The position numbers and the translations under genes were made by a program. Positions 13,713 to 25,849 of a stretch of 64,000 nt of DNA are shown in pieces. Below the pieces are notes generated by a model. That model saw only the letters and a list, made by a program, of their open reading frames with translations, was not told where the DNA came from and did no database searches. Positions within the stretch are counted from its first letter, which is position 1; every line of letters begins with the position of its first letter. Source of the DNA: an uncultured Nitrospirota bacterium (GTDB lineage Bacteria > Nitrospirota > Nitrospiria > Nitrospirales > UBA8639); assembly GCA_937139405.1 (NCBI GenBank), contig CAKZPV010000008.1, positions 62,001 through 126,000 of the forward strand, in the 5' to 3' direction.

Positions 13713-14687
13713 TTATACCTTTATTTGACACATATTTCTCATCACGTATGCACCAATACACATCATGAGACCCGCACCACCAATCATCATGTGACCTATT
13801 GGATCTTCAAACAGCAAAGACATATACTCTTCGTTTAAATAGAATAAAACTCCTGCCATCACAAACGGCAAGGCGAACAGAATATAACCCGACAACCGTC
13901 CTTCAGCAGAGAGCGATTTAATTCGCCCAAACAATTCGTACCGCTGACGAATGAGTCGACTAATGGCTTCAATGATTTCGGCCAAATTTCCCCCAGTTTC
14001 ACGTTGAACGGTCAAGGCCGTAACAAAAAACTTCAAATCAACACAATCAACGCGTCCGGTTAAATTCTTCAAAGCCTCAGGCACATCAATACCAAAGGAT
14101 ATCTCTTCAACTGTACGGGAAAATTCTGGACCAATGGGATCAGGAAATTCATCCCCTACCATTTTCATTCCTACAGAGAACGCATGACCTGCTCGAAGAG
14201 CACGAGCCATCAAATCAAGTGCATCAGGCAATTGTCGTTGAAATTCACCAAAGCGCCTTTTCCGTTTCATCTTGATAAACATCCATGGCAACACACAACC
14301 CACAAGTCCCAACCCCAGTGATATGGGCAATCCCCAATCTTTGAATGCACCAACTAAACAGCCAACCATTCCCAAGCAACCGCTTAATAGGAAAAATACC
14401 CCAATCGGCATTTTGCTATTGGCCTGCTGCAATAATTGCTCTAATCCGCCAAGATTACTGACAGAAGATAACAAGGCCTGCATCCAGGGAACTTCACTGA
14501 GTTTGCGTTTACGTAAAATTTCTTGTTCAGGATTTTTCTCTTTTTCTTGGACACGTTTTCCTGATCCGCGCAGACGCCGCTTCATATTCCGCTGCTGCGG
14601 ACTGACAAATTGGTGGTAGAAGTAGTACCCACCTTCGATCAGTAAAATCAACGACAGAAAAATTCCAAGACTAATGACGATCGTCAT
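13713..14687 (-). CDS. tadB: Tad inner-membrane platform protein TadB (T2SS F family)
   Basis: A 324-residue F-domain protein. Membrane segments lie at the N terminus (4-25), around 95-140 and at the C terminus (about 255-275 and 298-318). The F domain carries LPDALDLMARALRAGHAFSVG and RETGGNLAEIIEAIS, both typical of TadB. It is the partner of TadC in the Flp pilus assembly platform and sits between tadA and tadC, 75 bases downstream of tadA. Length is normal. Confidence 0.92.
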   Translation of the reverse strand: MTIVISLGIFLSLILLIEGGYYFYHQFVSPQQRNMKRRLRGSGKRVQEKEKNPEQEILRKRKLSEVPWMQALLSSVSNLGGLEQLLQQANSKMPIGVFFLLSGCLGMVGCLVGAFKDWGLPISLGLGLVGCVLPWMFIKMKRKRRFGEFQRQLPDALDLMARALRAGHAFSVGMKMVGDEFPDPIGPEFSRTVEEISFGIDVPEALKNLTGRVDCVDLKFFVTALTVQRETGGNLAEIIEAISRLIRQRYELFGRIKSLSAEGRLSGYILFALPFVMAGVLFYLNEEYMSLLFEDPIGHMMIGGAGLMMCIGAYVMRNMCQIKV

Positions 14688-14762
14688 GCCAATTCTCCTA
14701 CAACACGAAATAGTCGTCCTAGTAAAACAGTAGAAGGTTCGAATGATACGCTTTTCATCTTC

Positions 14763-16088
14763 TTACACTTCATAAATCTTATCTGGATCAAAGATACTTA
14801 AATCACATTCAATACCTAAGGCCTTAAAACGTTCAACAAATTTCGGGCGAACTCCCGTTGCTCGAAATATCCCATGAACTTTTCGTTCCGAATCAAGACC
14901 TGTTTGTTGAAAACTAAAAATTTCCTGTATGGTAATGGTTTCACCTTCCATACCTACGATTTCGGATAGACTAGTCGTTTTTCGTGAACCATCTGATAAG
15001 CGAGTTTGTTGCAACACCACATCAATGGCCGAACTAATATAATGACGCAACGCTTTTGTGGCTAAGTTGAGCCCGGCCATTGCCACTAGGGTTTCCACAC
15101 GAGTTAAGCAATCCCGAGGAGTATTCGCGTGAATGGTCGTTAATGATCCGTCGTGACCAGTATTCATAGCCTGAAGCATGTCTAAACATTCCCCACTCCT
15201 AACCTCACCCATGACGATCCGGTCAGGCCGCATCCGCAAACAGTTTTTGACGAGCTCTCGTTGGGTCACTTCCCCTTTTCCTTCTACATTGGGAGGTCGA
15301 GTCTCCAAACGGACAACATGATCCTGTCGTAGCTGCAATTCCGCTGAATCCTCAATAGTGACAATGCGTTCATCATCGGGGATAAATCCTGACAAAATAT
15401 TCAGAATAGTCGTTTTTCCACAACCCGTACCGCCGGAAATGATGATATTAAGCCGAGCCTCTACAATTCCTCGAAGTAATTCAGCAATCTCTGGAGTCAA
15501 AGATTTATACTTAACAAGATCATCAATAACCAGCTTATCTTTAGAAAACTTCCGAATCGAAATTGATGACCCATCCAACGCCAATGGTGGGATGATGGCA
15601 TTCACACGAGACCCATCCAATAAACGCGCATCACACATTGGGGCTGATTCATCAATTCGACGCCCAACAGCTGACACAATTTTTTCGATAATTTTTCGCA
15701 GATGGCTTTCATCTCGAAATTTCACATCAGTTAACACAAGCTTCCCTGCTCGTTCTACATAAATTTGGTCAGCTCGGTTCACTAAGATATCGTTCACGCT
15801 TTGATCTTGAACTAACGGTTCCAACGGTCCAAGGCCCATCACTTCATGTTGAATATCAGAAATGAGAGCTTCCCGCTCCTTCATACTGAGGGGAATAGAT
15901 TCTGTCTCCAATAACTCGGTGACAAGTTTATTCAATTCTACTTTCAGCAGATCACTATCCATCGTCGCAATAATTGATAGATCTAGCGCATCAATGACTT
16001 GCCGATGTAGACGCTCCTTCAAGGGACTGAGATCCATAGTATCTGCTCCAGGACCTTGCCCTACATCACTCCATTCAGATTGAAACAT
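14763..16088 (-). CDS. tadA: Tad/Flp pilus assembly ATPase TadA (CpaF)
   Basis: A 441-residue VirB11/PulE-type hexameric ATPase that powers Flp pilus assembly. The N-terminal domain contains EVMGLGPLEPLV...DILVN, typical of CpaF. The Walker A motif is SGGTGCGKTT at about 218-227, followed by the Asp box TIEDSAELQL, the Walker B region RIVMGEVRSGE and the His box GHDGSLTTIHAN. All catalytic motifs are intact. It is encoded between tadZ (45 bases upstream) and tadB. It acts on the cytoplasmic side of the inner membrane with TadB/TadC. Confidence 0.95.
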   Translation of the reverse strand: MFQSEWSDVGQGPGADTMDLSPLKERLHRQVIDALDLSIIATMDSDLLKVELNKLVTELLETESIPLSMKEREALISDIQHEVMGLGPLEPLVQDQSVNDILVNRADQIYVERAGKLVLTDVKFRDESHLRKIIEKIVSAVGRRIDESAPMCDARLLDGSRVNAIIPPLALDGSSISIRKFSKDKLVIDDLVKYKSLTPEIAELLRGIVEARLNIIISGGTGCGKTTILNILSGFIPDDERIVTIEDSAELQLRQDHVVRLETRPPNVEGKGEVTQRELVKNCLRMRPDRIVMGEVRSGECLDMLQAMNTGHDGSLTTIHANTPRDCLTRVETLVAMAGLNLATKALRHYISSAIDVVLQQTRLSDGSRKTTSLSEIVGMEGETITIQEIFSFQQTGLDSERKVHGIFRATGVRPKFVERFKALGIECDLSIFDPDKIYEV

Positions 16089-16132
16089 GACGTCGTCTTC
16101 CCCTCACATCTTTTTGTTGATTCACACCACGT

Positions 16133-17374
16133 TTACGCAGGCTGAGTTTTCTTGGACTTGAAAGGGCTCAACCAACCAAGAACAGACGATTTGCTTTTCG
16201 ACTTGTCTGATTGCTCATCAAAAGAATGCGCAAAATCCATATAGGACTTACCCACTGCTGTTTTTGGAGCCGTTTCAATCAAAGGCTTCCCGCTATTGAC
16301 TGAATGACTGACTGAAGGATAATCGTTAGGAACGAGCCAATGGGCTTTTTGCTTCAGAATTTCTTCGGTTTCCGCCAGCACATCTTTTTCCCCTGACAAG
16401 AATCGATTCATGATTAACCGTAATTTACTTTGAGGAAACCCAGAACCACGAAGGAGCTCCAAAATTCTCTTTGTACGATGAACAACAGGTACCATCAAGG
16501 TCGAGGTGACCATGATCAGTGAGGCCAACTCCAATGCCTTCTTAGTGGTCAAATCCAATACATGCCCACAATCCATTACCACATAATCAAAATTGACTTG
16601 GAGCATTCGCAATGTGGCTTCAACACAATCTGGACTGAGGCGCCCGGTACTCAAATCATCGTAACCTGAGGCGAGAACCTGTAAGCCCGACTCATACTTA
16701 GTCAAGATTCGAAATAGGAACGCCTGATCCACCCTGGAGGGATCGGCAGCGATATCACGAAAACTATGAGAAGGTTGAATATCAAGATACAATGGGAGAT
16801 CTCCCCCATGTTGATTAACATCAACCAAGGCAACTCTAGGCTTACTTGGCAAACTCATCAAGGCTGCTGCCGTATTCACCGCAATACATGTCGTCCCCAC
16901 GCCGCCTTTTCCTCCAAAGAAAGCCAGCACTTTTCCTTCTTTTTTGATATCCTCACCTTTTCCTGGTGTGGCTACAGCACGTTCCTGAAAACGAGATAAG
17001 GCATCTTCGACTTCCTTTTCCTGAATCGGTTGAGCAAGAAACTCTTTAGCTCCAGCTCGCATGGCTTCCAGTAAAATGGCTGAATCTAGCTTCGGGGCTG
17101 TGAGAAAAATTTCCGTTCCGCGTGCCACTTTGACTAAATCTCGAATGACGGAAAACGTCTCTTCAGGGTTTTCTTGTAATTCTAAAATGAGTAGCGACGG
17201 AGACGCGGCATCATTACTATCTTTGAGTTGAAAATTCTCGTTTTGTGAAACCAGCTCTTCTAACGCCTTCTTCGCTTCTGAACTTTGAATGGACAATTCA
17301 ACTTTGAAGGCGGACGTATTGGAGTCCACAGTTCCACCAGATACACGTTTGGGTTTCCAACTTGAATCCGCCAT
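16133..17374 (-). CDS. tadZ: Tad localisation ATPase TadZ (CpaE)
   Basis: A 413-residue protein with a receiver-like N-terminal domain (about 22-130, with the AMRAGAKEFLAQPI segment typical of CpaE) and a MinD/ParA-like ATPase domain from about 147. The deviant Walker A motif KGGVGTT is at 156-162. TadZ/CpaE positions the Tad machine at the pole or other site. Its ATG overlaps the stop codon of the upstream lipoprotein gene by one base (TAATG), suggesting translational coupling. In the ParA motif GKGGVGTT the second signature Lys is present; whether the ATPase is active cannot be judged. Confidence 0.92.
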   Translation of the reverse strand: MADSSWKPKRVSGGTVDSNTSAFKVELSIQSSEAKKALEELVSQNENFQLKDSNDAASPSLLILELQENPEETFSVIRDLVKVARGTEIFLTAPKLDSAILLEAMRAGAKEFLAQPIQEKEVEDALSRFQERAVATPGKGEDIKKEGKVLAFFGGKGGVGTTCIAVNTAAALMSLPSKPRVALVDVNQHGGDLPLYLDIQPSHSFRDIAADPSRVDQAFLFRILTKYESGLQVLASGYDDLSTGRLSPDCVEATLRMLQVNFDYVVMDCGHVLDLTTKKALELASLIMVTSTLMVPVVHRTKRILELLRGSGFPQSKLRLIMNRFLSGEKDVLAETEEILKQKAHWLVPNDYPSVSHSVNSGKPLIETAPKTAVGKSYMDFAHSFDEQSDKSKSKSSVLGWLSPFKSKKTQPA

Positions 17375-17757
17375 TATGATCCCCCTCCACTACTAAACGT
17401 GATTCTGCCGCCCCCTCCAGATTTTGGTTTAAAAGGTGGCTTTTCAAACATTTTATAATAGCGTTGCATGCTCAATTGAGTATCCACTGGACCTCTCCCT
17501 TCAGGCGGCTCCAAGGAATTTCCCGCTTGAGGATTCAGAATCTGGCTCTCTAAGGCGTACCGATAGGAATTCCCGAAATCTTCATTTAAATGGATCGGTT
17601 GGGGTGCCCAAGGGGAGAACACCTGATCCGCTTTTCCCATCGCAAACGGGCGCCGGCCATTGTCTTCAGTCATGACTGGCCATACACCACACCCTGTTAT
17701 TCCCAACAGCATAAGGCTCGTTAATCCAATAGAAATTCTTAAAAATTGGCGTCGCAT
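17374..17757 (-). CDS. Small lipoprotein in the tad locus
   Basis: A 127-residue predicted lipoprotein with a basic N terminus (MRRQ), hydrophobic core and lipobox GITGC giving Cys23. The mature part is polar, ends in a Gly-rich stretch (SGGGGRITFSSGGGS) and shows no domain I recognise. The frame is open from 17814, but the ATG at 17757 is preceded by a strong ribosome site (AAGGAG) and a proper signal peptide. It lies between the secretin gene (31 bases away) and tadZ (one-base overlap), the place where cpaD-type lipoproteins sit in other tad loci. I see no sequence likeness to CpaD, so a role as secretin accessory is inference. Confidence 0.8.
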   Translation of the reverse strand: MRRQFLRISIGLTSLMLLGITGCGVWPVMTEDNGRRPFAMGKADQVFSPWAPQPIHLNEDFGNSYRYALESQILNPQAGNSLEPPEGRGPVDTQLSMQRYYKMFEKPPFKPKSGGGGRITFSSGGGS

Positions 17758-17788
17758 GATATTCTCCTTTTTTCCTCGTAATGACTCA

Positions 17789-19249
17789 TCAGGGTGCAAG
17801 ATGACCGAATACACCTTCTACTCCGCCTTTTTGATAAGGCATACGCGTAGCCATGCGAGGTTCTCCGATCTGATAGGCTTCAGAAGGTCGAGGAACATCT
17901 TTTTCAGGATACACGCCTTCCAAATAGCCCATGAGCATAGATTCAAAACCATTTGGCTCTAAATAATGGTCAGTCGGCAACGTCTGGTCCACCACATTGA
18001 GCGGCTTCACCAGATGTGGTGTCACAATCACAATCAGTTCGGTTTCTTCCTTGTCAAATGACGAACTTCGGAATAGCGCACCAAGAATTGGGATCTCTCC
18101 GAGCACTGGATACTTGGCAACCGTTTCACGAATATTGTCTTGGAGCATTCCGGCAATGGCAAAGCTTTGTCCGTCCCCTAACTCCACAACTGTCTTCACA
18201 CGACGCGTGATCAACGCTGGGATTTGAAACCCTGCTAATTGAATCCCGTTGGCAAAATCCAATTCTGACACCTCGGGATTCACCACGATAGAAATCCGAT
18301 TTTCCGACAGAACCGTTGGAGTAAATTGCAAGCCAACGCCAAATTCCTTATATTCAATACCAACCGTACCAAAGTCTTGAGGTACCGGAACGGGAAACTC
18401 CCCTCCCGCCAGGAATGCTGCCGGCTGACCGCTCTCAGTAATCAACGTCGGTTCGGCTAAAGACTTCGACAATCCATGTTCTTTCAACATATCAAGAGTC
18501 ACTGTCCATGCATCCTGTCCGATATTAAACCCTAAAAAGGCACTCGCGGCCTCGGAAGCAAATACCGTAAGGCCACCTGCACCTTGGGGGTCAGCTTCGA
18601 AGGTACTTAAGTCCCCTAATCTTCCAATGGAAAAATCACGATGCCCTAGTTGCCGACGAGTAAAATTGACCCCAAGTCTTTTCAATATTCCTCGTTGCAT
18701 CTCGGCAATTTTGACTTCCATCATCACCTGTTGAACACCGCCAACTTGCATTAAATTGACGATTTTCTCCGGGGCGAATGGTTCGGCTAAGATCAATGCT
18801 TGGCTCAACGCTGCAGCATTGGTCACATTTCCTCCAAGCGTAATGCTTTCGTTAGCGGCCATAACCTGAATTTCCGGTTCGTCGGGCAGCAAAGCATGAA
18901 GTTGTTCTTTCAATCGTGTTACATCAGGAGTGACTCTAACTTCGAGGACATTTGAAACCTTTCCATCTTGAGCCCAAAGAGTCAGAGTGGTGGTCCCAAT
19001 TTTTTTGGCAGTGACATAGACTTGTTTCGTCGAGAGCACAATCGTATCGGCAATCTCAGGTTCGGCCAGCGAAGCTCGCTTAAACTTCTCGGAGGTTTCA
19101 ACAATTTTGGATGTTCCCACTGTCAGGTCCAAAGATTGGGGAACCTCAATTTGAGAAGTCTGATACGTCAAACCTTCTCCCCAGACCGGACTACTGAACA
19201 GTACACTTAACCCAATTATGATCAATTTTTGTTGTAACAAACGTGGCAT
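17789..19249 (-). CDS. rcpA: Flp pilus secretin (RcpA/CpaC)
   Basis: A 486-residue outer-membrane secretin. A signal peptide (about 1-24, ending PVWG) precedes an N-terminal pilus-secretin region (QSLDLTVGTSKIVETSEKF), a BON-like/N1 domain (about 105-165) and the secretin C domain with FLAGGEFPVPVP, IVVNPEVSELDF, FAIAGMLQDNIRETVAKYP and the closing ELIVIVTPHLVKP. This last set is the standard secretin signature. It forms the channel through which the Flp pilus leaves. It lies 78 bases downstream of cpaB/rcpC in the usual order. Confidence 0.94.
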   Translation of the reverse strand: MPRLLQQKLIIIGLSVLFSSPVWGEGLTYQTSQIEVPQSLDLTVGTSKIVETSEKFKRASLAEPEIADTIVLSTKQVYVTAKKIGTTTLTLWAQDGKVSNVLEVRVTPDVTRLKEQLHALLPDEPEIQVMAANESITLGGNVTNAAALSQALILAEPFAPEKIVNLMQVGGVQQVMMEVKIAEMQRGILKRLGVNFTRRQLGHRDFSIGRLGDLSTFEADPQGAGGLTVFASEAASAFLGFNIGQDAWTVTLDMLKEHGLSKSLAEPTLITESGQPAAFLAGGEFPVPVPQDFGTVGIEYKEFGVGLQFTPTVLSENRISIVVNPEVSELDFANGIQLAGFQIPALITRRVKTVVELGDGQSFAIAGMLQDNIRETVAKYPVLGEIPILGALFRSSSFDKEETELIVIVTPHLVKPLNVVDQTLPTDHYLEPNGFESMLMGYLEGVYPEKDVPRPSEAYQIGEPRMATRMPYQKGGVEGVFGHLAP

Positions 19250-19326
19250 AATAGTCCCTACTTAGTGGTTAACATTGGTGAATCCAAGCAATGTCCTGCT
19301 GGTCATTCTTAGCGGATACCATCCAT

Positions 19327-20142
19327 TTAAAATCGTCGCACTGATTTATCTTTCCCCTTAATCACTTCTACCTTCACACGCTTACTTGCTTTGGGAGCTA
19401 ATTGATACGACCTCATAAGGTCTGTCAATTTCGCACCTCTGGTCTTTTTAATATCAGGATTCAATGGACTTCGAAGAGCAAGTCGTATTTTCCCTTCATT
19501 GGTCGCCATCGCCAGTTTTTCTGCTTCTTCTAGGGTCACCTCAAGGGTAATTACTTTCACTGCTTTCGGCTCCTCTTCATCCACTCGTTCCATTTGTGTC
19601 CCTGTGGCAAGGACTAGGGAATTTTCCAACACAACTTTCGTGATTTTCTTATCGGTTTTACTCGCTCCTTGACGCTCAAACGTCACCATCACATCCACGT
19701 GATCTCCTGGTTTAATAAAGCCAGGCAGCCCGACAACTTCATTGACTTTTACGGCCATCGCACGTTTATTTGGATTCATCACCGCACTCACCCCTCCAGT
19801 TGTGACATCAATTGGAGCAAGCTTTGATTCCATGAAGGGTTCGTTCTTTTTTAAATTCGCCAAGACGACTCGGCCTTTAAGATCGTCGACCGTTTTAAAG
19901 TGTCCAACAGGTAATATCTCCTCAGGATAGGAGACCACCCGAATAAATTCATCTGTTAATGGCGTCCCCCATGGAACATCAGAACTCGCCACCGCAATTT
20001 CGGCTCCCGCAATTTCCACGACTGGTTGGGCCTCGGGTTCGCTTCCCTGCTGTCCTGCAAGCCATTGATAAATCAGCACTGTTGTTACTAAGGCGATTCC
20101 GATCGCAGCACCTAAAAATAGCAGTGGACGTTTTTGCCCCAT
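19327..20142 (-). CDS. cpaB: Flp pilus assembly protein CpaB (RcpC)
   Basis: A 271-residue protein with a single N-terminal membrane anchor (about 8-28) and an SAF domain (about 45-110: EIAVASSDVPWGTPLTDEF), followed by the RcpC/CpaB domain (VDVMVTF, LEVTLEEAEKLAMATNEG, IRLALRSP). CpaB is a periplasmic partner of the secretin in Tad systems. A GTG at 20145 and an ATG at 20142 are adjacent; the ATG lies seven bases after AGGAGG and is preferred. It is encoded directly upstream of the secretin gene. Confidence 0.93.
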   Translation of the reverse strand: MGQKRPLLFLGAAIGIALVTTVLIYQWLAGQQGSEPEAQPVVEIAGAEIAVASSDVPWGTPLTDEFIRVVSYPEEILPVGHFKTVDDLKGRVVLANLKKNEPFMESKLAPIDVTTGGVSAVMNPNKRAMAVKVNEVVGLPGFIKPGDHVDVMVTFERQGASKTDKKITKVVLENSLVLATGTQMERVDEEEPKAVKVITLEVTLEEAEKLAMATNEGKIRLALRSPLNPDIKKTRGAKLTDLMRSYQLAPKASKRVKVEVIKGKDKSVRRF

Positions 20143-20313
20143 CACCGTGCCTCCTCGTTATTCATGCTCTTGCGCTTAACATTCATTTTTTTACTTTACT
20201 TCGTGGTTGACGACAAACCTACCTGAATATAGGTATTTTCAGGTCTTACATGCGAATATCGGATTCCATGCCTACTTTCTTTAATCTTTTTCTCGTCTTC
20301 GAAACGAACAAAA

Positions 20314-20850
20314 TCAAATTGTCTGAAACCATTGATACCCTTGACCAATGAGAGTCCCCAGACCAAGAACAAGTGCATACCGCAGCTTTGGAAGAGCAGT
20401 TTGCTCTAAAGAGGCGGTGACATTCACCTTCATAAACACCATACTGACCAAAATAACCTTTATCCTTTCAGCCGTTTGCGCTAAACCGAGATGCCAAACC
20501 ATCATCGCCACGGCATATAATCCGCCTAGTAAGGAAGCAAAAAGAAATCCAACAAAAACATTAAATGGACCAACCACAGCACCGACGGCGGCCAGTAACT
20601 TCACATCACCAGCGCCCATTCCCCCATACACATAAAAACCAATGAGCAGGCTGAAACCCAAACCCAAACCCTCCACACTGAAGAGAAGCCCATTCCCAGA
20701 GTCTGAAATTGAATGAAATCCAAGGCCAACAAGTACCAAGGAAAACGTGATGAAATTGGGAACTCGGCTAGATCGAACGTCTGTTATGCCTGCAGCGATA
20801 AGGCCTATGAGCAAAACACCATGTATAACGAACTCTGTAGCGATCATCAT
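20314..20850 (-). CDS. cpaA: Flp prepilin peptidase (TadV/CpaA, family A24)
   Basis: A 178-residue polytopic aspartic peptidase of family A24A with about five to six membrane segments and no N-methylase domain, as usual for TadV/CpaA. The two catalytic aspartates are visible: Asp24 in GITDVRSSRVPN and Asp82 in GGMGAGDVKLL. It cleaves Flp prepilins and TadE/F pseudopilins at the Gly in G/xxxxEY sites, which are present in the three pilins encoded at 23971-24729. The gene is 171 bases upstream of cpaB. Confidence 0.92.
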   Translation of the reverse strand: MMIATEFVIHGVLLIGLIAAGITDVRSSRVPNFITFSLVLVGLGFHSISDSGNGLLFSVEGLGLGFSLLIGFYVYGGMGAGDVKLLAAVGAVVGPFNVFVGFLFASLLGGLYAVAMMVWHLGLAQTAERIKVILVSMVFMKVNVTASLEQTALPKLRYALVLGLGTLIGQGYQWFQTI

Positions 20851-21298
20851 TAAAGAATTTGAACGAGTTTCATGTTAAGTATTGCCTAAGGCGTTAATTA
20901 GCATTGGCAATCATATTCCTGTAACAAGATAATAATCGGCGTTTTTTTTGCCGATCTGTAGCTATGAAGAGTGAAAAAACTGATGCGAATAAATCAGGTG
21001 AGACACACCCACAATTAAAGAGAGTCGGTTGGGGAAAATCTCACCAATCGCATGCGTGATATTGAAGAACTCTTGGAGAATTATAGAAAGAGGAACACTG
21101 CAACTGGCAAACTACACCGCGAAGAAAAGGGAAGAGAAAATATATGCTTCTCAGATGACAAACTCATTCAGAAAAATCAAAAACCCAAAGATCAGAGCAA
21201 TGAACAATTTGTCCATCGCATTCCTTACCTCAGATAGAATTGAGTGACAACGAAGCAACAGATTGCATCCTTGCCAGACGAATCCGTCTATTCGTTCT
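20851..21298. other. Intergenic region between tadE and cpaA
   Basis: A 448-base stretch with no convincing gene. It holds a hairpin with stem ATCGGC/GCCGAT (20935-20955) and a loop of eight T, and an inverted repeat ATTGCC/GGCAAT around 20881-20911. A plus-strand frame at 21052-21237 (61 codons, very hydrophilic, starting MRDIEELLENYRKR) is open but runs against the surrounding operon and has no ribosome site, so I do not call it a gene. The gap suggests the downstream tad genes may have their own promoter. Confidence 0.5.
20935..20955 (-). terminator. Hairpin upstream of cpaA, possible terminator of the tadE transcript
   Basis: Perfect six-base stem (ATCGGC/GCCGAT) with a nine-base loop. 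On the minus strand the loop is A-rich and the stem is followed by TATTATC, only weakly U-rich. It might end transcripts from the pilin/tadG/tadE group before cpaA. The weak tail makes this uncertain. Confidence 0.3.
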
Positions 21299-21880
21299 CT
21301 AAAAAATTGCTCGACTCGCCAAAAGAAGACTCGTATTCTGATGTCCGGGACCACCCAAAAACGGAGTCATCCCGCCAACCGGAGTCAATGGGTTATGTTG
21401 GTAATAGACTTTCAGGACCGTGAATTGATTCACTGCCGCGGCTCCTAATGCCGCATCCCATTCAAGATAATCATATAAATTCTGAGGCAGATCACAATTG
21501 GTAGCTGGTGCGGGAATGTGAATATCCGGGTGCGATAAGGTACCTGCTGACGTTACATTACAGACTGGTGGATTCCCAGCAGCCACAGCTCCATTGACCT
21601 GCGCCAAATGAATGGAATACTTTTCTGGATGACCATTGAGGTCTAAAGTCCCTCCTGTGGATTCCAACATGTTCATCATGTTGGCGTTGGTCGTAAGATT
21701 CCGGGAAGCAAGACTGGCCCCTTCTCGAGCCAATTGAGTGACCGCAAGGCGTTCGCTATACAATACGCCATATTCTACGGTCGCAAATGCTAAAAACATA
21801 AACAAGATTGAAGACACTGCGAACTCAATCGTCGCACTCCCCCGCTCAGACCCTAGTTGATTCTTTGAAGACCAATTCAT
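21299..21880 (-). CDS. tadE: TadE-family pseudopilin
   Basis: A 193-residue protein with the TadE signature near the N terminus: a basic/polar leader, then ERGSATIEFAVSSILFMFL (about 13-31), a site resembling the G/xxxxEF prepilin cleavage motif followed by a hydrophobic helix, and ARSEGASLASR-like LAREGASLASR at about 55-65. The remainder is a periplasmic domain with two Cys residues (CNVTS and NCDLP) that could form a disulfide. TadE/TadF pseudopilins are processed by TadV and needed for Flp pilus formation. Next gene of the same type lies 48 bases upstream. Confidence 0.88.
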   Translation of the reverse strand: MNWSSKNQLGSERGSATIEFAVSSILFMFLAFATVEYGVLYSERLAVTQLAREGASLASRNLTTNANMMNMLESTGGTLDLNGHPEKYSIHLAQVNGAVAAGNPPVCNVTSAGTLSHPDIHIPAPATNCDLPQNLYDYLEWDAALGAAAVNQFTVLKVYYQHNPLTPVGGMTPFLGGPGHQNTSLLLASRAIF

Positions 21881-21928
21881 GATTCAGCCCCCCACAAGAC
21901 AATAAGATACGTGTTGTCCTATCATTTT

Positions 21929-22447
21929 CTATAAAATAAAGTTTTCATTCCTGTAAGTCCCTTCCGAAGTTATTTGCTTCGTGGCCCCACCCATAAAACC
22001 CCCAACCAAATCTGTAAACCATTGATGAGTATAGAGCACACGCACACGCATGAAGGCCCCCGTCCCACCAGCTGCGGCCGTATTGACCACTGCAGGATCA
22101 TCAGGATCTGTCCAATCGGCATCAACTGGAAATATTTTAATATTCGCCGGATCAATCACCATCACCCCAGCAACTTTATCGTGAATAGCTTTTTTAATGG
22201 AGTCTTCTCGAGACAAAGTATTGCCCATTCCATCATCCAAGGTCTGTCCAGTCGCACCGATGCGAATGCCTTCACTGACAGCCGTATTCATCGTATGATT
22301 ATGCAGAAAGTACCAACCAAATTCTGCCGTGCCAAATACTACTAACAAAAATGGAAGCAGGGTGATCCCCATTTCCACTGCGGAAACCCCAGAGTCGTTT
22401 CGGCAGAGTCTTCGGATTCTTTTTGGGATTGCTTGCCAACTACTCAT
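21929..22447 (-). CDS. TadE/TadF-like pseudopilin
   Basis: A 172-residue protein with a basic leader, the segment NDSGVSAVEMGITLLPFLLV (about 18-37) that matches the TadE-like cleavage and membrane region, and NTAVSEGIRIGA shortly after. The C-terminal part is a periplasmic domain without Cys. It is encoded between tadG and the other tadE gene, on the same strand, with a good ribosome site (GGAGG) before the ATG. TadE and TadF are hard to tell apart by sequence alone, so I leave the symbol empty. Confidence 0.86.
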   Translation of the reverse strand: MSSWQAIPKRIRRLCRNDSGVSAVEMGITLLPFLLVVFGTAEFGWYFLHNHTMNTAVSEGIRIGATGQTLDDGMGNTLSREDSIKKAIHDKVAGVMVIDPANIKIFPVDADWTDPDDPAVVNTAAAGGTGAFMRVRVLYTHQWFTDLVGGFMGGATKQITSEGTYRNENFIL

Positions 22448-22527
22448 GATACTTCCCTCCTAATATTGACAATCGGGAAATTTTTGTCGATCCCTATGCC
22501 ACAGCGGCTTAAAAAACAGGACCTCTT

Positions 22528-23829
22528 TTAGCTCACGAGAATGAGTTTGAGCTCATTAGCAATGGCTTGGAAAATTCCCTCCAGATCTGCAGGGTCATTT
22601 GCAAAGTACGCATGACCAGCATCGGTCGCAAGAGTGCTCAGGAAGGCTTGATCGATAGCGCCAAGCCCTATGGTATATACATCAATCCCCATGGCTTTCA
22701 ATTGGGCGGCATGGTCTATCGCCATTTCCTTAACAAGCCAAGCTTGGTAATCTTTGAAATTAGCGTCCGGTTGTGACACAAAACAATATGGGGCGCTATA
22801 GGTCCCAGCAATAGGACTATCGGGCGCGTTTACCCCATAGACAGGATCATCCATGATGTACCATTTTGTTGTTTGTTGAGCTCCACCACAAGCGGAACCA
22901 GAAGTTTTTCCATCACCAGAAAATTTAGCATTACTTCCAAAATACGTCGCTTGATCATACGTGTCGCCTATTAGGTTATATACATTTCCATCAGTGCTAT
23001 TCAGACCCACGGCAGTAACATCTGAGCCTCCCATTTTAAATTGCCCCTTAAAACCACTGGGATTACCATCAGAAAATAGAATCACGACTTGTCGGGTTCG
23101 TTCATTCGCTGGAAGAGCTAATTGCCCTGGCTCCCACGGCAGGTTCACCGCTGTGCCGAGAGCATCTTCAGTGTTGGTTCCCCCAACAGCGTTTAAATTG
23201 GCAATTTCATTGGTCATGTCAAACACAAAATCGTGATCTAGAGCAACAGGTGTTTGAACTCCTGTCGCAAAAGAGATCAGGGCAAACTTGTGATCCTTTT
23301 GAAAACTTTGAAAATTATTCACAAAGGTGTCGGCCCCGGTTTGGAGATCACCTATTGGACCTCCTGCCATAGATCCAGACACGTCCAAAACTAAGGCTAT
23401 TTCAGCCTTACGAAGCTTGGCAGCCCCAACCGCCCCTAAATTGGTCATTTGTTGTCCTGTGTCAAAGACCGTCGTCATATGGTTGATCGAATGGACATTT
23501 CCATTGACGGTCACTTTACCTTGGGCATCTACGTTGCCAACAAATACAGGTGTGTCCGTATCTAGGAGTCCACCAGGGAAATTCGCTTGCGCCACTTCAA
23601 CGACAAACGCTTCTAACGCCGCGTCATTTGGAAATTTAGGGTTAGAGACATTTTTAGCACCTGCGAAGGCAGCGCCGTCAATAGATTTACTGATTTCCGC
23701 TTGAATGCCATACCATCGTCCGATTTCAACGCCCAAAGCTGCAAACCCCACCATGGTACCGAGAACAATTGCAGACATCAGAAAATAAGCACCTTTCTGA
23801 TCAGCTAGAATTTGGCGAATAGGTTTCAT
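22528..23829 (-). CDS. tadG: TadG-like von Willebrand A domain protein
   Basis: A 433-residue protein with an N-terminal TadE/G-type segment (DQKGAYFLMSAIVLGTMVGF, about 10-30), a periplasmic region and a von Willebrand factor A domain with intact MIDAS motif DVSGSMAG followed by TNTEDALG and VILFSDGNPSG. This matches TadG, a Flp pilus-associated protein anchored in the envelope. The frame begins at 23865, but the ATG at 23829 is preceded by AAGGAG and gives MKPIRQILADQKG, the usual short N terminus. The Cys pair around 290-320 may form a disulfide. It lies between the pilins and the tadE genes. Confidence 0.88.
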   Translation of the reverse strand: MKPIRQILADQKGAYFLMSAIVLGTMVGFAALGVEIGRWYGIQAEISKSIDGAAFAGAKNVSNPKFPNDAALEAFVVEVAQANFPGGLLDTDTPVFVGNVDAQGKVTVNGNVHSINHMTTVFDTGQQMTNLGAVGAAKLRKAEIALVLDVSGSMAGGPIGDLQTGADTFVNNFQSFQKDHKFALISFATGVQTPVALDHDFVFDMTNEIANLNAVGGTNTEDALGTAVNLPWEPGQLALPANERTRQVVILFSDGNPSGFKGQFKMGGSDVTAVGLNSTDGNVYNLIGDTYDQATYFGSNAKFSGDGKTSGSACGGAQQTTKWYIMDDPVYGVNAPDSPIAGTYSAPYCFVSQPDANFKDYQAWLVKEMAIDHAAQLKAMGIDVYTIGLGAIDQAFLSTLATDAGHAYFANDPADLEGIFQAIANELKLILVS

Positions 23830-23970
23830 TGAAAATATTCTCCTTCTTGCAGATTGCCTTCTCACAACAACTCCTGGCTTACGATTTTCAGAAGGGCCGC
23901 TTCAATAGGTTTGGTGAGTCTTGATGCATGATGGTGCCGTATCCGTATTTCGATTCAGCAGAGAATATTA

Positions 23971-24144
23971 TTAAGGTAAGTTTGTGTTCACTGTGGTATA
24001 GAGTCCTGCGACTTTAGTCCCCAATGTACTCACCGTTGTAATAATGACTCCAGCAATAAGTGCCGCCAATAATCCATATTCAATCGCAGTGGCACCTTCT
24101 TCATCAGCCACCCAGGCTCCAATATATTGCATGGTTTTTTTCAT
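23971..24144 (-). CDS. flp: Flp major pilin (copy 1, promoter-distal)
   Basis: A 57-residue type IVb Flp prepilin. MKKTMQYIGAWVADEEG leader, then the signature G/ATAIEYGLLAALIAGV, cleaved by TadV after Gly. The mature pilin is about 40 residues and ends TTVNTNLP. The ATG at 24144 follows TAGGAG with eight-base spacing; the frame is open further upstream but that part is not pilin-like. It differs from the two other copies in the helix (IITTVSTLGTKVAGLY). Confidence 0.93.
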   Translation of the reverse strand: MKKTMQYIGAWVADEEGATAIEYGLLAALIAGVIITTVSTLGTKVAGLYTTVNTNLP

Positions 24145-24216
24145 ATTGTGACAACTCCTACACAAACAATACAGAAGCAACATCCCATATTTCGTTCTCT
24201 ACACTGCAAGAGATCC

Positions 24217-24273: not shown

Positions 24274-24447
24274 TTAAGGAAGATTGGTGTTTACCGTGGT
24301 AAACGCCGTGTTCAACTTCACGCCGATCTGACCAACGACAACAATGATGACCGCCGCGATTAACGCAGCCAACAAACCATATTCAATTGCAGTCGCGCCT
24401 TCTTCGTCCGCGATAAAAGCTCCAATATGTTCTATAGCGTTTTTCAT
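24274..24447 (-). CDS. flp: Flp major pilin (copy 2)
   Basis: A 57-residue Flp prepilin, read directly from the minus strand: leader MKNAIEHIGAFIADEEG, processing motif G/ATAIEYGLLAALIAAV, and C-terminal TAFTTVNTNLP. Its mature part is almost identical to that of copy 3 (one Val/Ile change seen), so the two are recent duplicates. A ribosome site (TTAGGAGA) precedes the ATG at 24447. Flp pilins polymerise to thin adhesive pili. Confidence 0.92.
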   Translation of the reverse strand: MKNAIEHIGAFIADEEGATAIEYGLLAALIAAVIIVVVGQIGVKLNTAFTTVNTNLP

Positions 24448-24564: not shown

Positions 24565-24729
24565 TTAGGGAAGATTGGTGTTTACCGTAGTAAACGCCGT
24601 GTTCAATTTAATCCCAATCTGACCAACCACAACAATGATCACTGCTGCGATTAAGGCGGCCAACAACCCATACTCAATTGCGGTCGCTCCCTCTTCGTCA
24701 TTGAGAAAATTCATGACTTGATTCACCAT
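24565..24729 (-). CDS. flp: Flp major pilin (copy 3, promoter-proximal)
   Basis: A 54-residue Flp prepilin: leader MVNQVMNFLNDEEG, processing motif G/ATAIEYGLLAALIAAV and C terminus TAFTTVNTNLP. The ATG at 24729 lies seven bases after AAGGAG; the frame continues open to 24840 but that segment overlaps the riboswitch and is not pilin-like. It is the first gene of the tad locus and the one directly behind the c-di-GMP-I riboswitch-like leader. Confidence 0.93.
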   Translation of the reverse strand: MVNQVMNFLNDEEGATAIEYGLLAALIAAVIIVVVGQIGIKLNTAFTTVNTNLP

Positions 24730-24804
24730 AGCGTATCTCCTTGTCGGGCGAAAAAAGTGAAGTCGCGTAAGGTCAAAATGCCCGAACGTCCTGACACATA
24801 CGCT
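24730..24804 (-). promoter_or_regulatory. Possible expression platform of the flp riboswitch
   Basis: Between the aptamer and the flp start the leader can fold so that AGCGTAT (24804-24798) pairs perfectly with ATACGCT (24736-24730), the bases between the Shine-Dalgarno AAGGAG and the ATG. Inside it TCGGGC (24785-24780) pairs with GCCCGA (24749-24744). The ribosome site would then sit in a bulge flanked by two helices, which suggests control of translation. This is read by eye; no folding energies were computed. Confidence 0.4.
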
Positions 24805-24822
24805 GTCTCTTAAAGGTTTGTT

Positions 24823-24903
24823 CCTTCGGCAGCCCGGCAATCAAGGCCCAGCCTTGACCCGTAGCTTTGCGCCCACGCCTTCCAACGCGTTCGCCTTTAT
24901 CGG
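24823..24903 (-). ncRNA. Cyclic-di-GMP-I (GEMM-I) riboswitch aptamer
   Basis: The minus strand shows the conserved elements of GEMM-I in order: 5' GATAAAGGCGAAC, a P2 helix capped by the GNRA loop GGAA (24883-24880), the core GGGCGCAAAGC (24874-24864), ACGGG (24862-24858), a P3 hairpin with perfect seven-base stem TCAAGGC/GCCTTGA (24857-24841), and the closing GCCGGGCTGCCG (about 24838-24827) that pairs back to the 5' GGC. Such RNAs bind c-di-GMP and switch downstream gene expression. It sits about 95 bases upstream of the first flp pilin. The match was made by eye to the known consensus. Confidence 0.85.
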
Positions 24904-24924
24904 GAAGAGACACCCGACTGAAGC

Positions 24925-24953
24925 TATATACATTCGTTATTTGCAAATGTTCA
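24925..24953 (-). promoter_or_regulatory. Candidate sigma-70-type promoter of the flp/tad operon
   Basis: On the minus strand a TGAACA box (24953-24948), a 17-base spacer and TATATA (24930-24925) resemble -35 and -10 elements. Transcription would begin near 24918, about 15 bases before the riboswitch aptamer, which is the expected arrangement. The -35 box matches only four of six consensus positions. Confidence 0.4.
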
Positions 24954-25849
24954 TCTACCCATCTCAAGCGACCCCTCGATTCTCGACAATCCCTTCGAGA
25001 AAGGGCTGGCTTAAGATTTCTCTGATTTTTGTCGTCTTTTTGATTCATCACAATCAAATTTTCCATCTTGCCAATGAATTGAATTGATCCATTATCGACA
25101 AGCATTCGAAAACCTTGACAAAGAATTTCATTCCTTCTGTATCTCAAAAAACAAGGAACAATCGTCAAGAAAGAATTCTACATTCCGACAACATGGCATC
25201 AAATTACTTTTCAGAGATTTTCATCCCGTTCAGCTATTAATTTTTCTTCTAACATCTTCCAATTGCACTCCCTTTCTCTGAACCAATCGAATTCATCCAA
25301 AATTCTCATGAAACATTCCCTTGTTTCATGCAACACGTAGAAAAGAGCATATTATTGAAGGTTCTCCTTTCCATAAGATAAAACTCATGAGGCGCATTCT
25401 TGGAACTCGCATTAAGATCGCAAATCTTGCCTCTCAAGATTTGTGATCGATGATTTAATAGATTTTCATAAAATACAGCGGGAATCCCGTGTGCCTGCAA
25501 TCAAATTCTTCATGAAGAGCTACATTCACGCTCAAATTCTCCGATACAAGCCAATAGAACATTGCAAACTCAATTCTTATCCTTGTAAAGATAGAATTGG
25601 AGGCCGACGGCTAGCTAATACTTGCTTGTTCCGCCAATCCGAGGAAGCACGTCTTTGAAACACGAATTCTGATTTAGACTAAGAACAGAATCGTGGCAGC
25701 GAGGATAAGGAATTGAATACAAGATTGAAGATCAGGAGAGGAATTAACCATCGATTGATTCAGCACCAGTTATCTATCTTGCACGATATATTTGAATGTC
25801 TTTTGATCAAGTACGAGACGTCGATACCAAATAGGCCCAACATCACTTT
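24954..25849. other. Intergenic region between the flp leader and the glycosyltransferase gene
   Basis: About 900 AT-rich bases with no convincing gene; the open frames are short, lack ribosome sites and do not look like protein. A perfect nine-base hairpin CAAATCTTG/CAAGATTTG with loop CCTCT sits at 25421-25443, and a smaller repeat TTCTCGA/TCGAGAA lies near 24976-24996. This divergent region presumably carries the promoters of the tad operon (left) and the glycan genes (right). Confidence 0.5.

Follow-up and report, generated by a model that had tools for sequence, protein, structure and literature searches.

The locus analysed here raises the question of whether the synthesis of Flp pilins in an uncultured member of the Nitrospirales is controlled directly by c-di-GMP through an RNA element in the flp leader, and of which other features of the leader would take part in such control. 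The window, which is the whole stretch of 64,000 nucleotides that was analysed, had been given a first-pass annotation in which a c-di-GMP-I riboswitch was placed in front of three pilin genes and a tad/Flp locus. The features of the riboswitch and of the genes behind it are as follows.

24824–24905, minus strand: c-di-GMP-I (GEMM-I) riboswitch aptamer
24737–24742, minus strand: Shine-Dalgarno sequence AAGGAG of flp1, found by sequence, with AGGAG invariant in the orthologues
24565–24729, minus strand: flp1 pilin, 54 aa (Pfam Flp_Fap PF04964, E 4.5e-19)
24274–24447, minus strand: flp2 pilin, 57 aa, 83% identity to flp1
23971–24183, minus strand: flp3 pilin, 70 aa, 73% identity to flp1 over the match
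13713–23865, minus strand: tad locus with VWA, two TadE-like, prepilin peptidase, RcpC/CpaB, secretin, AAA (CpaE-like), T2SSE (CpaF) and T2SSF proteins (Pfam)

The aptamer is complete and was recognised by two covariance models, RF01051 with 61.9 bits (cut-off 35; E 1.7e-11 for the genome) and RF03167, c-di-GMP-I-GGC, with 60.5 bits over the full model, positions 1–80 (cut-off 59, a margin of 1.5 bits; E 8.5e-12), so that the search proposed as a check on the annotation gave scores over threshold. An Rfam cmscan of the whole 64-kb window returned this aptamer, at 24824-24904 on the minus strand, as the sole match at the gathering threshold, with RF03167 as the best model of the clan, and 7 RF01051 elements over the cut-off were present in the window's genome. 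The GEMM-I landmarks (GGAA loop, GGGCGCAAAGC, ACGGG, P3 hairpin, GCCGGGCTGCCG) were located as annotated. The equivalents of the ligand contacts G20, A47 and C92, presumed from the model structure and the usual Vc2 numbering, are G, A and C, and are invariant in 16 of 16 orthologues (alignment columns 26, 53 and 92). Helices P1, P2 and P3 are kept across the orthologues, a single cell of the aptamer being unpaired in the per-pair counts, and changes on both sides preserve pairing (34-45 from CG to UA and 67-77 from GC to AU, for example). The element is almost certainly a real riboswitch.

Its position before the pilins was upheld by strict orthology as well as by the covariance model. Elements of the c-di-GMP-I class were found in all 21 genomes of the genus and one stands before flp in 16 of them, at a near-constant distance of 93–96 nt from the flp start codon. 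The three pilins and the full tad locus predicted downstream were recovered, and the Tad/Flp set (flp pilins, prepilin peptidase, CpaB, secretin, CpaF ATPase and TadB/C, by Pfam) is complete. Across 236 genomes of the order, the leader motif was found in 20, which belong to five genera of one family; none of 187 sampled genomes from other families in the order and none of the viral contigs searched had a match. Named records with the motif are Nitrospirales metagenome-assembled genomes such as NPIRA03, NPIRA06 and OFTM76. Within the same family, the 14 genomes of genus g2 (G021–G034) contained no c-di-GMP-I match at all. One genome carries an extra c-di-GMP-I element (L057, G014:C35:39930-40007), located downstream of the flp element by about 1.2 kb; the proteins after it resemble TadE/TadG in sequence. 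A search of the open-access literature, in which absence is weak evidence, returned no study of a c-di-GMP riboswitch in Nitrospira and nothing on GEMM-I before flp, its one match being a Bacillus collagen-binding protein.

From the edges of the aptamer to the Shine-Dalgarno sequence, the orthologue comparison revealed an extension of P1 (P1b), a hairpin (P4) and, more weakly, a pseudoknot, which together form a candidate expression platform.

24905–24911, minus strand: P1b 5' strand (GYCYCUU in the orthologues)
24805–24811, minus strand: P1b 3' strand (AAGRGRC)
24772–24795, minus strand: P4 hairpin, 24795-24791 pairing with 24776-24772, loop CGGGC at 24784-24780
24745–24749, minus strand: GCCCG, complementary to the P4 loop and ending two bases before the Shine-Dalgarno sequence

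The P1b strands pair in 16 of 16 orthologues with two pairs changed on both sides, P4 is 100% paired with one pair changed on both sides, and the pseudoknot pairs in 16 of 16 with one compensatory change in the genus (CGAGC/GCUCG in G015). For the three combined, 100% of cells are paired and four pairs are changed on both sides, and neither the pairing nor the covariation score was reached by any of 500 shuffles. In other genera the sequence of the P4 stem differs, and the pseudoknot of the sister genus takes the forms GGGCACA/UGUGCCC and GGGCAUA/UAUGCCC. Because the pseudoknot is rarely significant in single sequences (p<0.05 in 5 of 26), the case for it rests on comparison.

P4 and the pseudoknot also occur before flp in genomes without an adjacent aptamer (G036, G041, G042, G043 and G044), so they may represent an earlier means of flp control that acquired the aptamer later. 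An Rfam search of such leaders among those scanned returned GEMM-I and chance matches only. As a separate observation, flp leaders of genus g9 and G036 (L162, L165, L172, L180 and L156) carry a GGGCACA-type loop that pairs with UGUGCCC just before the flp Shine-Dalgarno sequence, again with no adjacent aptamer.

A different switch helix, AGCGTAT with ATACGCT, had been put forward in the annotation. Its complementarity exists in the window (24804-24798 with 24736-24730); as a conserved helix it failed, since only 71.8% of cells are paired across the 16 orthologues, there is no covariation support and 488 of 500 shuffles pair as well. Within the clade of the window itself the helix could nonetheless play a part.

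Pseudoknot-free folding with the aptamer enforced or blocked gave no difference in Shine-Dalgarno access for flp and therefore predicted neither an ON nor an OFF switch. The same folding applied to sister GEMM-I elements leaned ON for most of those before FnIII-type genes and for some before the small gene described below as gene X. Because the ribosome site of the FnIII-type elements is mostly freed once P1b is closed, we lean, by analogy and only modestly, towards flp being ON with c-di-GMP.

The candidate promoter annotated just before the aptamer was not conserved in the orthologue alignment. A conserved sigma28-type promoter was found instead about 190 nt upstream of the aptamer.

25092–25118, minus strand: predicted sigma28/FliA-type promoter TCAAGGTT-N11-GTCGATAA, at a conserved position before GEMM-I and similar to the flagellin promoter

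Its boxes resemble TAAAGTTT-N11-GCCGATAA, which we take to be the pattern of a sigma28 (FliA) promoter; those of the flagellin gene in the window's genome are TCAAGTTT-N11-GACGATAA. Motifs of this type lie upstream of 49 of 144 GEMM-I elements, nearly all flp loci among them, and in 357 kb of downstream sequence used as a control the main sigma28 pattern matched the same strand once. A relaxed pattern showed no enrichment across the window's genome (16 matches, and 16 for the reversed pattern), so the case for the promoter rests on its position and conservation. In 13 of the 16 genus genomes the -10 box lies at -112; for the window and G003 the promoter position is -194, and G011 has a degenerate motif.

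The aptamer is itself contained in a reading frame.

24773–25066, minus strand: conserved frame spanning the whole aptamer, a short form of gene X, open in 16 of 16 genus genomes

Downstream of the predicted transcription start, ATG first occurs in frame at 25066 (an alternative, P0001, is at 25048), and the frame ends with UGA at 24775-24773. Each of the 16 genomes keeps it open over a long upstream part and the entire aptamer, until a stop 52–58 nt past the aptamer. Where the -10 box lies at -112, the ATG starts exactly 7 nt after the box, and the frame would for this reason be leaderless in those 13 genomes. Upstream of the aptamer (-62 to -14) pN/pS is 0.38 in this frame versus 0.98 and 1.63 in the other two, and within the aptamer it is 0.30–0.35 versus 0.84 and 1.29, and all 16 sequences are free of stops. 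Ratios as low were obtained in 0 of 1000 column permutations for the upstream part and in 17 of 1000 for the aptamer, figures that are not strict probabilities since the sequences are related. Control GEMM-I aptamers in the same genomes and register, before FnIII-type genes and the sigma gene, gave 1.03, 0.84 and 1.88 and contained stops. At some P3 pairs the compensatory changes are silent on both sides, CAA/CAG (Gln) facing TTG/CTG (Leu). Downstream of the aptamer no coding signal was detected (pN/pS 0.74, with 384 of 1000 permutations as low). From these substitution patterns, the frame through the aptamer is likely to be coding and selected.

The probable origin of the frame was traced through sister genera. 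G037 and G048, which represent two of them, have the order upstream region, GEMM-I number 1, gene X (159–167 codons) and flp; the upstream region of G037 carries a sigma28-type promoter, and the last codons of gene X form a second GEMM-I aptamer in both. In G040 (genus g8) one extra base stops the frame at the start of the aptamer and the RNA element is intact, and genus g9 has a gene X homologue preceded by GEMM-I number 1 and followed by flp, with no second aptamer. By profile comparison, the short frame matched gene X of genera g5, g8 and g10 with P 1e-6 and that of g9, the genus without that second aptamer, with P 3.7e-5; the motif shared behind these matches is W-x2-E-H-x2-[ILM]-T-x-K-H. 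These matches indicate that the frame was probably already coding before it was truncated in the window's genus. Gene X matched no family in Pfam or NCBIfam. At L154, L150 and L158 (G037, G048 and G040), one small gene before flp is flanked by a pair of c-di-GMP-I aptamers spaced about 550 nt from each other.

The frame around the aptamer, the upstream sigma28-type promoter and the hairpin and pseudoknot platform beside the Shine-Dalgarno sequence are features that the first-pass annotation overlooked. A further c-di-GMP-I riboswitch, at G000:C34:208134-208223 on the minus strand (L004/L200), precedes a sigma gene of FliA/WhiG type, the second in the window's genome. This second FliA-type copy scores about 205–206 bits against a cut-off of 189.6; the first, on the flagellin contig, scores 263 bits. 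GEMM-I was found before a FliA/WhiG-family sigma gene in 30 genomes, and a terminator-like GC-rich hairpin with a U-run between aptamer and second sigma gene suggests that this riboswitch may act by transcription attenuation. The arrangement suggests a possible feed-forward loop in which c-di-GMP would act on flp through the sigma factor and also through the flp leader.

Other c-di-GMP-I elements of the genome were recorded in passing. Those at G000:C31:158071-158149 and G000:C8:137192-137269, with their homologues (48 matches), precede secreted proteins, one scanned member of which has FnIII and InlB-type repeat domains; many have a TAAAG...CCGATAA promoter about 125 nt upstream, and G002 has two tandem copies. 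A weak match of 23.7 bits, below the cut-off and possibly decayed, lies near the element of an FnIII-type gene (G000:C8:135268-135348, minus strand, L015). The element at G000:C32:206704-206790 (L005/L201) precedes a response regulator and a response-regulator/histidine-kinase-like gene, assigned by sequence only, in a cluster present in 15 genomes.

Taken as a whole, we consider the following explanation reasonably probable. Transcription from the sigma28-type promoter would give an mRNA that begins with the coding sequence of a short protein, the truncated Nitrospirales gene X; the 3' part of this frame would double as the c-di-GMP-I aptamer, and the flp1–3 pilins would follow. Binding of c-di-GMP would close P1 and P1b and thereby influence the P4 hairpin and pseudoknot beside them, and these would in turn set pilin translation. 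In this way pilin synthesis would come under direct c-di-GMP control, as the annotation had proposed, and since the second FliA-type sigma gene has a c-di-GMP-I riboswitch of its own, c-di-GMP may act on flp twice, once by way of the supply of sigma factor and once by way of the leader. More tentative is the strongest form of the overlap, in which the same 81 nt work as a c-di-GMP aptamer and encode the C-terminal part of a translated protein under purifying selection, with ribosomes and ligand competing for it and jointly setting Flp output; an effect of translation of the frame on flp is possible to the same degree.

One alternative is a plain leader riboswitch, with flp regulated by aptamer and platform and with the overlapping frame left behind by gene X as a relic, untranslated or of little weight. 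It would account for a GEMM-I aptamer that is fully canonical, for G040, which has kept the RNA without the frame, for the lack of coding signal past the aptamer and for the loss of most of gene X in the window's genus. A relic would not, however, be expected to show a third-position bias and no stops genus-wide after truncation, an aptamer of exactly 81 nt in 20 of 20 flp elements of this kind (other GEMM-I elements range from 76 to 104), or, in G039 and the majority of genus genomes, an ATG exactly 7 nt past the -10 box, and we regard this reading as rather unlikely. Far less probable is the converse, that the aptamer is now mainly coding and senses no ligand, flp being run by the sigma28 promoter and P4/pseudoknot only. 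The occurrence of P4/pseudoknot before flp without an aptamer there, in most of genus g9 and in G036, fits such a reading, but the aptamer helices keep pairing through two-sided changes, the ligand-contact positions are invariant, and G040, despite its broken frame, has retained TCGGG and P1b.

A third alternative retains a sensing aptamer and changes what is sensed, the candidates being 3',3'-cGAMP, some other dinucleotide or whatever altered ligand may belong to the RF03167 variant 'GGC', a name which we take to refer to positions 20, 47 and 92. The best clan match in cmscan does bear this name, but at model position 37, the A47 equivalent, the RF03167 consensus is G and the window has A, as in canonical c-di-GMP-I. 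Sensors of cGAMP (GEMM-Ib) have A at the position-20 equivalent, which is G in 16 of 16 orthologues, and Hypr enzymes are expected to have S or T in the GGDEF motif, whereas all 7 complete GGDEF domains with a recognised motif are canonical GH..GD and none has a Hypr-type substitution. On both counts cGAMP is unsupported, although GEMM-I elements of Geobacter do sense it (PMC6456294), and a ligand other than c-di-GMP is improbable. With canonical contacts and ordinary-looking GGDEF domains, c-di-GMP is very likely the ligand despite the Rfam name.

If the frame is coding, one sequence serves both a riboswitch aptamer and a protein here, which would be an unusual double use. The comparison has built-in controls in the sister genera with and without the overlap and in the other GEMM-I elements of the same genomes, and the logic of ribosome traffic against ligand binding is open to direct test. 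The locus also connects the Tad pilus with c-di-GMP and with a FliA-type sigma factor in Nitrospirales of the nitrite-oxidizer type.

Compared with known systems, the element resembles RF01051 c-di-GMP-I riboswitches in its full aptamer over the cut-off, its canonical ligand contacts and the surface-structure gene downstream, and differs in that the aptamer overlaps a conserved protein-coding frame and is then followed by a hairpin and pseudoknot platform. RF03167 is passed by the narrow margin given above but without the consensus G at position 37. The pilM riboswitch of Geobacter, described as a transcriptional ON switch with cGAMP (PMC9262584), likewise places GEMM-I ahead of pilus genes; pilM is not Tad/Flp, the ligand is cGAMP, and an overlapping frame is not reported in the portion of that account consulted. 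In Bdellovibrio, FliA controls many non-flagellar genes through TTAAG-N16-CCGATA promoters, cell-surface genes included, and a c-di-GMP riboswitch RNA, merRNA, is made in massive amounts (PMC3627812). No gene follows merRNA, and no FliA promoter is listed for it, whereas here promoter and riboswitch both stand before flp and a FliA-type sigma gene has a riboswitch as well. The nearest parallel to the frame is provided by the B12 riboswitches of Mycobacterium tuberculosis metE and ppe2, in whose leaders short translated frames modulate the downstream gene, one of them lying within the metE aptamer (PMC11260477). Short frames in a riboswitch leader are common to both cases, as a prediction in the present one; ligand and phylum differ, and the frame in the window spans the whole aptamer, shows signs of purifying selection and probably derives from a longer gene.
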